From Bordetella parapertussis (lineage in GTDB: Bacteria > Pseudomonadota > Gammaproteobacteria > Burkholderiales > Burkholderiaceae_A), in NCBI GenBank assembly GCA_945862985.1, contig CAMAZF010000011.1, positions 1 to 64,000 on the forward strand: a stretch of 64,000 bases of DNA, read 5' to 3'. Below the pieces are notes generated by a model. That model saw only the letters and a program-made list of their open reading frames with translations, had not been told where the DNA came from and ran no database searches. Positions 31,193 through 37,910 of the stretch are shown piece after piece. A program made the translations under genes and the position numbers. How positions within the stretch are numbered: position 1 is the stretch's first letter; the number at the start of each line of letters is the position of its first letter.

Positions 31193-31597
31193 CTAGTCCT
31201 CGACCGCACGAACGCGATTGGCTTCGTCGATCAGGCCGCTGAGCTCGACACCACGAGCCACCGAGGTGTCGTGAACAAAATGAAGCTCCGGGGTTTGATG
31301 GATCTGGAGCAACTGCCCGAGGCGCGAACGAAGAAAGCCGCGGCAGGCGGTTAATCCCTGTGCGGACTTCACTCGCTGCTCCTCACTGTCTGGAAGGACG
31401 GTATAGAACACCTTTGCGTGGGCGTAATCGGAGGTCACCTCGACCTCTGAGATGGTGATGAGGCCGAGGCGAGGATCCTTCGCCTCGGTCTGAAGCAGAA
31501 CCGCCAGGTCACGCTGAATCTGATCAGCGACCCGAAAGCCCCGCTCCACCACTGACCTAGAGGGTCCGCGCGATTTCTTGGATTTCGAAGACCTCAA
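31193..31597 (-). CDS. rbfA: 30S ribosome-binding factor A
   Basis: Binds the 30S subunit and helps mature the 5' end of 16S rRNA. Core features are [37 protein letters not shown] and [22 protein letters not shown]. The 134-residue form starts at 31597, overlapping infB by 41 bases and adding a basic N-terminus ([13 protein letters not shown]); GTG codons at 31552 and 31549 just after the infB stop could be the real start and give about 119 residues. Operon position is the usual one. Confidence 0.93.
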
Positions 31598-34361
31598 GCT
31601 GGTCTCCTTCCTGGATGTCGTCGTAACCCTTCAAGGTCAGACCGCACTCAAAGCCCTCGCGCACTTCCTTGGCATCGTCTTTGAAACGCTTCAACGAGTC
31701 GAGGTAGCCCGTCCAGATCACCACATTCTCTCGGATGAGGCGAATGTGTGCGTCACGTCGAACGATGCCCTCGAGGACCATACATCCCGCGATGTTGCCC
31801 AGCTTGGAGACCTTGAAGACCTGACGGATCTCAACCATGCCCAGAGTGTTTTCACGCCGCTCGGGTGCCAGCATGCCCTGCATGGCGCTCTTCACCTCAT
31901 CCACTGCATCGTAGATGATGGTGTAGTAGCGCAGGTCAACGCCATTGGCTTCGGCCAGCTTCCTGGAGGTTTGATCTGCCCTGACATTAAAGCCAATGAT
32001 GACGGCCTTAGACGCAATCGCCAGATTGATGTCGGTCTCGGTGATGGCACCGACGCCAGAGTGAACCACCACCACCCGAACTTCCTCAGTCGAGAGCTTC
32101 AAGAGGGACGCAGAGAGCGCCTCCTGTGAACCCTGGACATCGGCCTTGATGATGAGCGCCAGGGTCTTTGCACCCTCACCCATGTTCTCGAAGATGTTTT
32201 CAAGCTTGGCCGCCTGCTGCTTGGCGAGTCGAACGTCTCGGAACTTGCCCTGACGGAAGAGCGCAATCTCACGTGCTTTGCGCTCATCGGCCAAGACCAG
32301 CATCTCGTCACCGGCCGAAGGCACCTCGGTCAGACCGAGAATCTCGGCTGGAATCGAGGGACCCGCCTCATTGATGTTTCGGCCCGACTCGTCGAGCATG
32401 GCGCGAACCCGCCCGAATGAGCTTCCTGCTAGAACGATGTCACCCTTTTTGAGGGTTCCTGCTTGCACCAGAACAGTGGCAACGGGACCGCGGCCACGGT
32501 CGATTCGAGCCTCAATCACCAGTCCCTTGGCAGGCGCATCGACGGGGGCGGTAAGCTCGAGCACTTCGGCCTGCAAAAGTACGTTCTCCAGCAACGCATC
32601 AATGCCCTCACCGGTCTTTGCCGAGACCGGGACAAAGGGCGAGTCGCCGCCGAACTCCTCTGGCACCACTTCCTCTGCCACCAGCTCATTCCGAACGCGA
32701 TCTGGGTTGGCATCGGGCTTATCGATCTTGTTGATGGCAACCACGATGGGCACCTTCGCGGCCTTGGCGTGTGCGATGGCCTCCTTGGTCTGAGGCATGA
32801 CGCCGTCATCGGCGGCCACCACCAGAATGACGATGTCGGTCGCGTTGGCTCCACGGGCTCGCATGGCCGTAAAGGCCTCGTGACCCGGGGTGTCGAGGAA
32901 TGTGATCACGCCTCGTGGCGTGTCCACGTGATAGGCCCCGATGTGCTGGGTAATTCCCCCCGCCTCGCCGGCTGCCACCTTGGTACGGCGAATGGTGTCG
33001 AGCAGCGAGGTCTTTCCGTGGTCGACGTGACCCATGATGGTGACCACAGGTGGGCGGTTGGTGGACTCGGCCTGAACCTCCTCTGGGGTCTCCTCCAGAA
33101 AGGCTTCGGGATCGTCGAGCTTGGCCGCGTAAGCCTTGTGGCCCATCTCCTCCACCACAATCATGGCGGTCTCTTGATCGAGCACCTGGTTAATGGTGAC
33201 CATCTGTCCCATCTTCATGAGCGTCTTGACCACCTCAGCACCCTTGACCGACATCTTGTGGGCCAAGTCTGCGACAGTGATGGTCTCAGGAACGTGAACA
33301 TCACGCGTGAGTGGCTCGGTCGGTGCTTGGAAATTGCTGGTCTCGGAGTTGTTGCCGCGCGAGCCTCTGGACTTCGGCCCCGCTCTCCAGCCTCCCGTTC
33401 CACCCGTCGCATCTCCCCTGGTTTTGAGTGCACGCCGTTTCTGCGCGTCATCTTGCCAAGTCGATGAGAGCTGCGAGGACTTCACGGACTTCTCAGACTT
33501 CTTGTCTTTGGGGCGATCGGTCGACTCTTCGCCAGGCTTCTTCGCCGGCTTGTTCAGCGTGATCGTGGTGTCCGGCTTAGGCGCCTCGGGCTTGGGTGGC
33601 TCAGGCGCCTTCGCAGTGGCCGCGAGTTTGCCGCTGCGAGCTGCACTCATCAGGCGGTTGATCGCAGCCACCTCATCTTCCACTGCACGACGGGCATCGG
33701 CAGCAGCCTGAGTGGCCGCCTGTTCGGCGGTGACCTTCCGCACGCGAGACTTCTTGGCCTCGGCTGCATCGGCAGAGCCCTCAGCCTGAGCGGTCGCATC
33801 GGCTGGAACCTCGGGCTGTTCTGGGGCCTCGGCAGAATCGGGGGCGGCCTCCGTGGCCTTTTGAGAGAGCTCCTGAGCGGCCTTCGCACGGGCGACGGCC
33901 TCCTCCTCTGCGCGCAGGCGAGCCTGACGCTCCTCCTCCTGGCGCGCAAGCAGCTCTTGCTGGCGCTTGGCCTCTGCCTCTCGGCGGGCGAGTTCGGCCT
34001 CATCGATGGCTGGCGCTGCAGGTGCCGAGGGCGCTGAAGGCGCCGGAGTTCCTTCTGGCTCATCTCGCTTGACGAACGTACGCTTCTTGCGAACCTCCAC
34101 CTGAATCGTGCGTGACTTGCCCGATGAATCGGCCTGGCGGATCTCGGACGTCTGCCGTTTGGTGATGGTGATTTTCTTGCGTGCTGCGTCTTCTGAACCA
34201 TGGGCTCGACGCAGAGCGTCAAGCAATCGTTCTTTGTCGGACTCCTTGAGCGGATCACTGGCGCTGGAAGCCTGCACTCCGGCAGACTTCAGTTGTTCCA
34301 GCAATGTCGCAACGGGGACCTTCAGTTCGGCGGCAAAACTCTCGACTGTATTAACGGCCAT
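31557..34361 (-). CDS. infB: Translation initiation factor IF-2
   Basis: GTPase that brings initiator tRNA to the ribosome. The 934-residue protein has an N-terminal IF2_N domain ([22 protein letters not shown]), a long, low-complexity linker rich in Ala, Glu, Lys and Pro (roughly residues 90-320), a second IF2_N-like segment, and the G domain with [29 protein letters not shown] and NKIDKP, then domains II-IV. I chose ATG 34361 because the protein then begins with the usual [10 protein letters not shown]; the start lies inside the last 11 bases of nusA. Purifying enzymes or folding predictions are not needed to recognise this family. Confidence 0.97.
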
Positions 34362-35853
34362 CCTGCGTCTCGCCTCCTTCTTCTGCAAACCAATGGGCGC
34401 GCGCCTTCATGATGAGATCGCTGGCGGAGGCCTCATCGAGGCCAGCCATTTCAACGAGCTCGTCAACCGCCAGTTCGGCCAGGTCGTCACGCGAAAAGAC
34501 CTTGTGATCGGCGAGCTTGGCCGCGAGATCGTGGGTCATGGTGTCGAGGTCGAGCAGATCTTGAGCGGTGGTCTCAAGCTTCTCTTCCTTGGCGATTTCC
34601 TCTGTCAGCAGCGCATTCCGAGCCCGGGTGCGGAGCTCATTGACGGTGTCCTCGTCGAACGCCTCAATCTCGAGCATTTCAGCCAGCGGCACATAGGCAA
34701 TTTCCTCGAGGCTAGAGAAGCCCTCATCGACGAGAACCTCAGCCACCTCTTGATCGACATCCAGCTTGTCCATGAAGGACTGAAGTACCGACTGACGCTC
34801 GGACTCCAGACGCTGCTGAGACTCCTCTGAGGTCATGATGTTGATCTGCCAACCTGTGAGCTCTGAGGCGAGCCTGACATTCTGACCACCACGTCCAATG
34901 GCGACTGCGAGCTGATCTTCCTCGACCACCACGTCCATGGCGTGACGCTCTTCGTCGACCAGGATGGAGCTGACGTTGGCCGGGGCGAGGGCTCCAATCA
35001 CAAACTGAGCTGGATCTTCAGACCAAAGAACAATATCTACGCGCTCGCCTGCAAGTTCATGGGTGACCGCCTGAACACGGCTTCCTCGGACACCCACACA
35101 GGTTCCGATTGGGTCGATACGGCGATCTTTGGTATGGACCGCAATCTTGGCCCGAACGCCGGAATCCCGCGCTGCGGATTTAATCTGCATCAGACCCTGT
35201 TCAATCTCAGGAACCTCGAGCTCAAAGAGCTTCATGATGAAGTCGGGAGCCGTGCGAGAGAGAATGATCTGCGGCCCTCTGGGGGTGCGGTCCACGCGCA
35301 AGAGGTAGGCACGGACACGATCACCTGGCCGGAGATTCTCTTTCGGAATCATCTGGTCACGAGGAAGGCGAGCCTCGATCTTGCCCGCTTCAACAATCAC
35401 ATCACCGCGCTCCATGCGCTTGACGGTGCCATTGATGACGGACTCTCCACGCTCCAGAAAGTCTTTCAGAATCTGCTCACGCTCGGCTTCACGAATGCGC
35501 TGCAGGATGACCTGCTTCGCTGCCTGCGCACCAATTCGCCCAAAGGGAACCGCTTCCATTTCCTCTTCAATGAAGTCGCCGACCTCGATGTCGTCAATCT
35601 GCTTGCGAGCTTCGGTGAGAATGATCTGGAGGTCGTGGTCCTCGAGTTCACCATCCGGCACCACCTGCCAGCGACGGAAGGCCTCGTAGTCGCCAGAATC
35701 TCGGTCGATGCTCACGCGAACATCCACCTCATCTGAGAACTGCTTCTTGGTCGCGGAAGCCAGCGCCATCTCCAAGGCCTGGAACACAATGTCACGCTCC
35801 ACACTTTTCTCACGCGCCAAAGCATCAGCTAACAGCAGAATCTCGCGGCTCAT
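34351..35853 (-). CDS. nusA: Transcription termination/antitermination factor NusA
   Basis: RNA polymerase-binding factor that modulates pausing, termination and antitermination. The 500-residue protein shows the N-terminal RNA polymerase-binding domain, an S1 domain ([18 protein letters not shown]), two KH domains ([19 protein letters not shown] and [14 protein letters not shown]), and two acidic C-terminal repeats of the gammaproteobacterial/betaproteobacterial type. It overlaps rimP by 4 bases. An intrinsic-terminator-like hairpin in the operon leader (36388-36419) lies where NusA could influence its own expression; this is an inference. Confidence 0.97.
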
Positions 35854-36353
35854 CGCCCTTTCTCCTTAAATGAAAACTGAGGGACCAGGCGAACCTGGTC
35901 CACATCATCCAGACAAAAATCCAGTGCCATGGGCTCTCCGCCCTTGCCTGCAAAACCAATTCGGTAGGTTGGCGCCTCAGGCGCCTCGGGATTGGGGTCT
36001 GCGATGACCTCCAGCAGCCCCTCAAAATTACGCTGACCATTCACAGGGCGACGCAGCCGAGCTTTCACAGGCTCCCCCGCGAACCGAACAAAATGGGAAT
36101 GGCGACTCAGGCGGCGATCCATTCCGGGAGAGGAGACCTCAAGCCTCTCGAAATCGACTCCCTCGACTGGAAGCGCATGCAAGAGCTGATTGGACAATGA
36201 CTCGCAATCCGAGATGCTGATGAGCTTCTCGCCGCTCGGGAAGTCAATGAACACCCGCAAGACGCCGCCCTGAGCCAGTTCAAGATCAACCAGCTCATAG
36301 CCTAAGTCTTGAGCGTTCGCCTCAATGATGGGCCATATGGCCTCTGCAGACAT
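35850..36353 (-). CDS. rimP: Ribosome maturation factor RimP
   Basis: Helps assemble the 30S subunit. The 167-residue protein contains [21 protein letters not shown], the [10 protein letters not shown] helix and [19 protein letters not shown], the core RimP features, and a C-terminal SH3-like domain. I chose ATG 36353 because AGGAA precedes it by 8 bases; the frame is open upstream to a TTG beside the leader hairpin. It begins the rimP-nusA-infB-rbfA-truB-typA run. Confidence 0.95.
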
Positions 36354-36387
36354 GCCGAATTCCTGTTGGGTTCGCGTTCGTGACGCC

Positions 36388-36419
36388 AAAAAAAAATGGG
36401 CTCTACGGAGCCCATTTTT
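36388..36419 (-). terminator. Intrinsic-terminator-like hairpin between rluB and rimP
   Basis: On the minus strand the stem TGGGCTC pairs with GAGCCCA around a four-base loop (CGTA), extended by A-T pairs, and is followed by nine T residues. It would terminate transcripts from rluB, but it also lies immediately downstream of a predicted promoter (36434-36463) and upstream of rimP. It can therefore act as a leader attenuator. The T run read on the other strand is shorter, and no plus-strand gene ends here. Confidence 0.88.
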
Positions 36420-36433
36420 CGTGGATTGGTCGG

Positions 36434-36463
36434 ATTATAACGGCCAGCAGGCTATTGGAGCAA
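36434..36463 (-). promoter_or_regulatory. Predicted sigma-70 promoter for rimP-nusA-infB
   Basis: On the minus strand TTGCTC (36463-36458) and a perfect TATAAT (36439-36434) are separated by 18 bases, just past the rluB stop at 36471. Transcription would start near 36427, about 74 bases before the rimP ATG. The hairpin at 36388-36419 is then transcribed only 8 to 13 bases after the start. Confidence 0.7.
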
Positions 36464-36470
36464 GCTCAAA

Positions 36471-37910
36471 CTAGGTGGGTCGCTTGCCGCCTCGTGGCCC
36501 GCCCGCCGACCCACGGCCTCCTGCGGGCTTCGCTCGCGCAGGCCTCTTGCCACCATTGCCCCCACCCCCCTTGCCTCCTGGTCTCTGAGGAGCGGAGAGC
36601 GAGGGGCCACTGGGCTTGGCTGTGCCCCAACTGGTCTGTAGGGGATTGGGCTTTTTGGCGCCTTGGCGCTTTTTCATCGGACCACCCAGCTGAGACAGAT
36701 GGGCATCGGCTCCGCTGGGTTGCCACTCGTCATCATCGTGCCCCTCTCGCAATGGCTCAGACGAGGTCTGTAAGTGGTCAAGAATGCCTGGCGCCATACC
36801 CTTGGCTACGACGGCCCCCTCTGTCGCACTGTGAGGCTTTCGACCAGACCGAGGCCCGCCACCCCGAGGAGCGTTCTGTCCCGGCGCCACCATGCGAGCA
36901 GCCGCCCGCCCCCCCTTGCCCTTGGGACCCCTGGGGCGAGCCTGGGGCTTCATTCCCACAGAATCGAGCAGTGCCTGCAAGGCGTCCGGTGCGAGGTCAG
37001 CGGATTGACCGCGACGAAGGGTGGAGGGCAGTGCGATAGGTCCGTACCGGACGCGGATGAGCCGGCTGACCGTCAGCCCGACCGCTTCAAACATGCGACG
37101 GACCTCTCGGTTGCGCCCTTCTTTGATCACCACCTTGAGCCAACGATTGGCGCCCTCTCCACCGGCGAACTCTATCTTGTCGAACTTGGCCGGCCCGTCT
37201 GAGAGTTCAACGCCGTCTTGGAGTTGCTGAATGGCCTCGTCGCTGATTTCTCCGAACACACGGACCGCATACTCGCGGTCGACCTCGGATCGGGGATGCA
37301 TCAGTCGATTGGCAAGATCACCAGAGGTGGTGAACAACAGCAAGCCCTCGGTGCTGACATCGAGCCGACCAACCGTGATCCAGCGGCCAAACTTCACGGG
37401 AGGAAGCTTTCGAAAAACGGTGACCCGCTGCTGGGGGTCGGATTTGGTCACGATCTCGCCCGAAGGCTTGTGGTAAGCCAGAACTCGAACGGGCGGGGGC
37501 TCCACACGCACCTTGATGGGCTTACCGTTCACCTTGACCTGATCGGCGTGTGTGATGCGCTGGCCGATGTGCGCGGGGGTGCCGTTGACGGACACCCGGC
37601 CCGCGAGGATCAGCTCCTCCATTTCCCGCCGCGACCCAATTCCCGCATCCGCAAGAACCTTGTGCAATTTGGGCGGGTCGTAGCTCAGTCCAGACGGCCG
37701 GCCGGCCTGAACCTGCGACTGCTCCCCCACAGGAAGAAGCTCGATCAGTTCCTCCTCCACCGGTGGCGCAGACTCCTGACTGGCTAAGAACTCAGCCTCC
37801 GCTTTTTTGAGCGCAGCCTCCTCCTCAGCCTCAGAGGGGTCGGCGTGGGCAGAGGACGCCTCAAGCATATCGGCGTCGGGTGCCTCGTTGGGCTCAAATT
37901 CAGCGTTCAT
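36471..37910 (-). CDS. rluB: 23S rRNA pseudouridine synthase RluB with long disordered tail
   Basis: RluB/RsuA-family enzyme that modifies U2605 of 23S rRNA. The 479-residue protein has an acidic N-terminal extension (about 70 residues), an S4 RNA-binding domain ([21 protein letters not shown]), and a catalytic domain with [14 protein letters not shown] including the catalytic Asp. After about residue 310 a tail of roughly 165 residues is rich in Gly, Arg, Lys and Pro and probably disordered, much like an RNA-binding RGG-type region. The start overlaps the scpB stop by 4 bases, the normal pairing. Confidence 0.93.

Follow-up and report, generated by a model that had tools for sequence, protein, structure and literature searches.

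A promoter that runs straight into an intrinsic terminator raises the question of which gene the terminator belongs to, the one before it or the one behind it, and what decides whether RNA polymerase passes. This arrangement stands in front of rimP-nusA-infB in the window, by which we mean the whole stretch of 64,000 nucleotides analyzed here. Read 5′ to 3′ on the minus strand, the locus consists of rluB, TTGCTC, 18 bp, TATAAT, CCGACCAATCCAC (13 nt), a hairpin, a T-run, 34 nt and the ATG of rimP (Table 1). Pfam searches placed RimP, NusA and IF-2 directly 3′ of the leader and an S4/pseudouridine synthase protein resembling RluB 5′ of it. Direct reading of the sequence bore out the TATAAT, the 18-base spacing, the hairpin, the nine T residues and the coordinates given in a first-pass annotation of this DNA, and the transcription start that it had estimated near 36427 agrees with the one predicted about 7 nt 3′ of the -10 element. 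From this start, RNA ending at the terminator would measure about 37-39 nt. The -35 hexamer that it had called fair is present, but with 3/6 matches to TTGACA it is weak. The ORF lister proposed TTG at 36389 as start of rimP, which is improbable because this position sits within the T-run; ATG at 36353 was preferred.

Table 1. Features of the rluB-rimP intergenic region and the neighboring genes in the window.
Feature	Position	Strand	Basis
rluB-like pseudouridine synthase, upstream gene	36471..37910	-	Pfam S4, PseudoU_synth_2
-35-like hexamer TTGCTC, 3/6 versus TTGACA, 18 bp from -10	36458..36463	-	Sequence
-10 element TATAAT, G at extended -10 position	36434..36439	-	Sequence
Predicted transcription start, ±2	36427	-	Inferred, about 7 nt 3′ of -10
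rimP-leader terminator hairpin GAAAAATGGGCTC-CGTA-GAGCCCATTTTTT, core GGGC/GCCC	36391..36420	-	Sequence, fold, conservation, pattern specificity
Nine-T run, terminator U-tract	36388..36396	-	Sequence
Probable rimP ribosome-binding site AGGA, 7 nt 5′ of ATG	36361..36364	-	Sequence
rimP, ATG at 36353	35850..36353	-	Pfam RimP_N, RimP C-terminal domain
nusA	34351..35853	-	Pfam NusA_N, S1, KH_5, HHH_5
infB (IF-2), true start may fall within the ORF	31557..34388	-	ORF list and Pfam

The leader of the window folds with -24 kcal/mol (z = -2.8), a value reached by one of 200 shuffled sequences, and its one strong stem is the hairpin. Within this stem, the GGGc(...)gCCC feature described for rimP leaders is present as ATGGGCTC-CGTA-GAGCCCAT (36396-36415), and the 34 nt between the end of the T-run and the rimP start codon lie inside the 4-130 nt range of such leaders. 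The pattern RTGGGC-N(2-8)-GCCCATTTTTT has a single match in the genome from which the window is taken, and this match is the leader site. A generic promoter and terminator scan of the window called neither the leader promoter nor the terminator. The promoter was missed because the scanner demands 4/6 matches in the -35 region, and the terminator was probably missed as A/T pairs get absorbed into the stem; the negative outcome of the scan was therefore not counted as evidence.

The first-pass annotation had suggested aligning the same leader in related genomes. Searches for RimP covered 61 relatives, followed by 200 genomes from the window's order, and 167 leaders, nearly all from this order, were assembled. 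A GGGC...GCCC hairpin with a T-run was found 5′ of rimP in 164 of the 167 sampled genomes, and the three exceptions (L066, L082, L145) have variant stem letters with pairing kept. The core GGG/CCC was constant in 100% and the next C/G pair in about 98% of the leaders; the invariance of GGG/CCC is partly built into the motif search, which was free to fail and failed three times only. The pair above the core varies and mostly still pairs (TA 54, GC 27, TG 19, CG 6 and AT 4 of 144). After GCCCA, T occurs at 90-100% from +1 to +6 in the 164 leaders. About 50 families of the order show this link between the hairpin core and rimP. When 150 genomes were searched with RTGGGC-N(2-8)-GCCCATTTTTT, 107 matches were obtained, compared to one for the reversed control, and 85 of the 90 matches that could be placed, i.e., for which the position of rimP was known, were located just 5′ of rimP on the same strand according to a hand count. 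Pseudomonas-type and other gammaproteobacterial leaders carry the same hairpin behind the terminator of a tRNA gene. Leaders from other classes of the phylum (L198-L200, L202, L203, L207) have a variant hairpin before rimP, GAGTGGGTCCACCCGGTCCCGCTC-TTTTTT or CGCAAGGACCCGCTC-TTTTTT, which is more complex than the GGGC/GCCC form.

Beyond the T-run, a further motif, RTTTGTG, is conserved from +7 to +13 after GCCCA in much of the window's order (L034-L179), with T 95%, T 96%, T 76%, G 61%, T 71% and G 68% at the positions following the purine; its gammaproteobacterial equivalents are RTTTCTG and RTTTCTA. The motif exceeds what a terminator needs. It is absent from the window, where GGCG stands after the T-run.

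The promoter signature is likewise shared by many of these leaders. Among 163 of them, -10-like hexamers (at least 5/6) located 15-24 nt 5′ of GGG were observed 61 times versus 5.4 expected. When 115 leaders were aligned on the -10 hexamer alone, TT emerged at the -35 position (84% and 78%) with a spacing of 17 bp, and the TG of an extended -10 element appeared at 67% and 79%; neither of these had been used for choosing the aligned sites. A promoter score of at least 10 was reached in 42 of 127 non-redundant leaders (shuffle mean 2.2, maximum 7). The window itself scored 11 at that distance, which was equalled in 2 of 2000 dinucleotide shuffles. Since the score was designed after the -10 alignment had been seen, it confirms rather than discovers the promoter. 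Relatives of the same genus have TATAAT with TTGCCT, TTGATT, TTGAGC or TTGCCA as -35 hexamer at matching places, and two close relatives (L013, L024) showed no recognizable promoter at that distance. About half of the non-redundant leaders had no clear promoter score at this place, suggesting that some genomes are served by other promoters. The presence of a conserved promoter immediately 5′ of the hairpin in many genomes would place the hairpin inside the rimP transcript. In three leaders of a sister genus (L018, L019, L021), the -10 element is located 52-54 nt upstream. These leaders share a AGTAAAATCAAGCACATACGACGCG block, conserved at 50-80 nt 5′ of the hairpin, which suggests that their promoter lies further upstream and that their leader is longer than in the genus of the window.

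These data bear on the reading that the hairpin is a plain terminator of rluB, that the operon depends on read-through or on a promoter at another site and that TATAAT is incidental. The hairpin lies 50-80 nt past the rluB stop codon, the window shows no second terminator for rluB, and the generic promoter scanner gave the site no score. However, in 17 of 164 leaders a second strong terminator, with another sequence, stands 5′ of the promoter region, and at eight loci a tRNA gene is located at most 420 nt upstream, and the GGGC/GCCC hairpin is still found with rimP. Because it stays with rimP despite a separate terminator or a tRNA gene, the hairpin is a rimP element. Moreover, the enrichment of the promoter signature falls precisely into the interval from the upstream gene to the hairpin, and an invariant stem sequence is unexpected for an ordinary terminator. 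We therefore consider a mere rluB terminator highly improbable. In the window's genome the hairpin must serve both purposes, as rimP leader and as stop for rluB, since it would also halt polymerase arriving from rluB with no other terminator in between. The proposal of the first-pass annotation that the site is a terminator-based attenuator rather than just the rluB terminator thus gains support from the hairpin tied to rimP, from the conserved promoter and from the rimP leader already described in the literature.

Naville and Gautheret (2010) ranked the rimP-leader first, as the most ubiquitous transcription attenuator, and proposed NusA as its regulator (PMC2965389). The general form depicted there (Figure 2b) comprises the place before rimP, GGGc(...)gCCC, a U-stretch, a distance of 4-130 nt and no antiterminator, and the window has all of these features. 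In the window, a predicted promoter directly precedes the hairpin, and for this order none is described in that text; RTTTGTG after the T-run, found in much of the order and replaced by GGCG in the window, is likewise a difference from that form. The same operon and layout are known from the Gram-positive Streptococcus agalactiae (gbs0413-gbs0418, rimP-nusA-infB), in which RNA-seq revealed a short and a long RNA from one start, with termination at an intrinsic terminator 31 nt on; the authors proposed feedback by NusA (PMC4448216). These mapped 31 nt compare with a predicted length of about 38 nt in the window. B. subtilis NusA controls its own synthesis: experiments showed that it stimulates intrinsic termination within the leader and that this termination governs entry into the operon (Mondal et al., 2016, cited from PMC12288461). 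The B. subtilis nusA-operon leader is about 180 nt long (PMC2965389), compared to the minimal leader of the window. E. coli metY-rimP-nusA-infB shares the operon and the terminator before rimP with the window, and its transcripts rise once NusA-dependent termination is reduced (PMC6511841). The autoregulation of the E. coli nusA operon that the first-pass annotation had mentioned is documented in this paper as read-through controlled by NusA. The E. coli leader is unlike that of the window in containing a tRNA gene, several promoters, tandem terminators and possibly an antiterminator. Rfam family RF01770, the gammaproteobacterial rimP leader (cut-off 47 bits), did not match the window, also when hits up to E ≤ 10 were admitted; from the same library it matched L188 and L190, two gammaproteobacterial leaders, with 84-88 bits. 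RF01770 models the longer gammaproteobacterial form and is narrower than the general rimP-leader.

NusA stimulates pausing at hairpins and intrinsic termination. Taken together, we regard it as highly likely that the window element is a minimal rimP-leader attenuator of rimP-nusA-infB, with the choice between stop and go most likely set by NusA. A sigma70-type promoter would start the RNA near 36427, approximately 10-15 nt before the GGGC/GCCC hairpin, and polymerase would arrive at the U-tract after about 35-40 nt, in line with the first-pass annotation, according to which the transcript meets the hairpin within about 40 bases. Part of the polymerases would stop there, and the remainder would read through into rimP-nusA-infB. 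This ratio most likely depends on a protein that acts at the paused complex, and NusA, which is encoded directly after rimP, is the most likely candidate by homology to the operons above: more NusA would lead to more stopping and hence to less NusA. The same hairpin would block transcription coming from rluB. An antiterminator RNA was rejected as the deciding element. Only about 7 nt separate the predicted start from the paired region, and no conserved sequence occurs there; in the leader alignment, the positions 5′ of the stem carry little information (0.03-0.24 bits at -12 to -5). RNA this short and variable cannot provide an antiterminator, and the decision therefore falls to the transcription complex and its factors.

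An attenuator controlled by something other than NusA, be it feedback by RimP, another RNA-binding protein or coupling to the 30S subunit or translation, appears unlikely. Since GGGC/GCCC is invariant, the core may be recognized by its sequence and not just form a hairpin, the conserved RTTTGTG behind the T-run could be an additional signal, and RimP is mentioned as a possibility by Naville and Gautheret (PMC2965389). Nevertheless, feedback by NusA on this operon is documented for E. coli (PMC6511841) and B. subtilis (PMC12288461), and no interaction of RimP with the leader was encountered in PMC2965389, PMC12288461, PMC4448216 and PMC6511841. It is improbable that the terminator acts as a constitutive throttle of fixed efficiency that keeps the operon at a low level without regulation. 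A throttle would suit the lack of a visible sensing structure and the mere 10-15 nt from start to stem; yet a constant one could do with any stem sequence, and the known homologues respond to NusA (PMC12288461, PMC6511841).

Another reading assigns the site to the opposite strand, on which it would encode an antisense or bidirectional small RNA belonging to the Burkholderia sRNA family RF02420 (Bp1_162). In the window, RF02420 matches the plus strand (36389-36446), antisense to the leader, with 19.7 bits and the sense strand with 14.6 bits, neither of which reaches the cut-off of 50. The sole match above this cut-off in 150 genomes lies opposite a rimP leader (G141:C44:373275-373371, plus strand, L040; 69.9 bits), the rimP gene of this genome being located at 372720-373163 on the minus strand, and a weaker match (G042:C5:92934-93007, L041) has the same relation to rimP. 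A- and T-runs flank the hairpin, so that termination is possible from either direction. Against a small RNA on this strand, the conserved -10 and -35 elements point towards rimP, and both the rimP -10 element and the hairpin occur in reverse complement within the RF02420 consensus. Moreover, the original RT-PCR used oligo-dT-primed cDNA and primers inside the candidate (PMC3521395), and such a combination does not fix the strand of RF02420. We therefore consider an antisense small RNA at this site extremely improbable; the simplest account of RF02420 appears to be that it is the reverse strand of the rimP leader. As homologues of the window element, STnc320, Atu_C8 and, apart from this question of strand, Bp1_162 itself were rejected, their Rfam matches being far below the cut-offs.

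The kind of element found here, a rimP-leader attenuator, is already well described. What the present analysis adds is the promoter just 5′ of the hairpin, conserved in much of the order, together with the minimal length of the leader and RTTTGTG after the T-run. A large bacterial order can thereby be counted firmly among the carriers of the rimP-leader, and an Rfam sRNA family, RF02420, is suggested to correspond to its reverse strand. With the layout reduced to promoter and terminator, about 150 bp of template DNA would make for an easy test of NusA feedback. A question since 2010 has been why GGGC/GCCC is invariant, given that any G+C-rich stem would terminate, and the 167 leaders supply natural variants for addressing it. 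In one speculative reading, to which we give little weight, the invariant core and, in many relatives, RTTTGTG together form a sequence-specific signal that NusA reads when polymerase is only just clear of the promoter and may still carry sigma, the RNA made by then being little more than the hairpin.

Further downstream in the operon, a perfect 8-bp stem, GGACCAGG-TTCG-CCTGGTCC (35882-35901, minus strand), with a weak T tail is located in the final codons of rimP, about 30 nt 5′ of the start of nusA. This stem could adjust the expression of rimP versus nusA.
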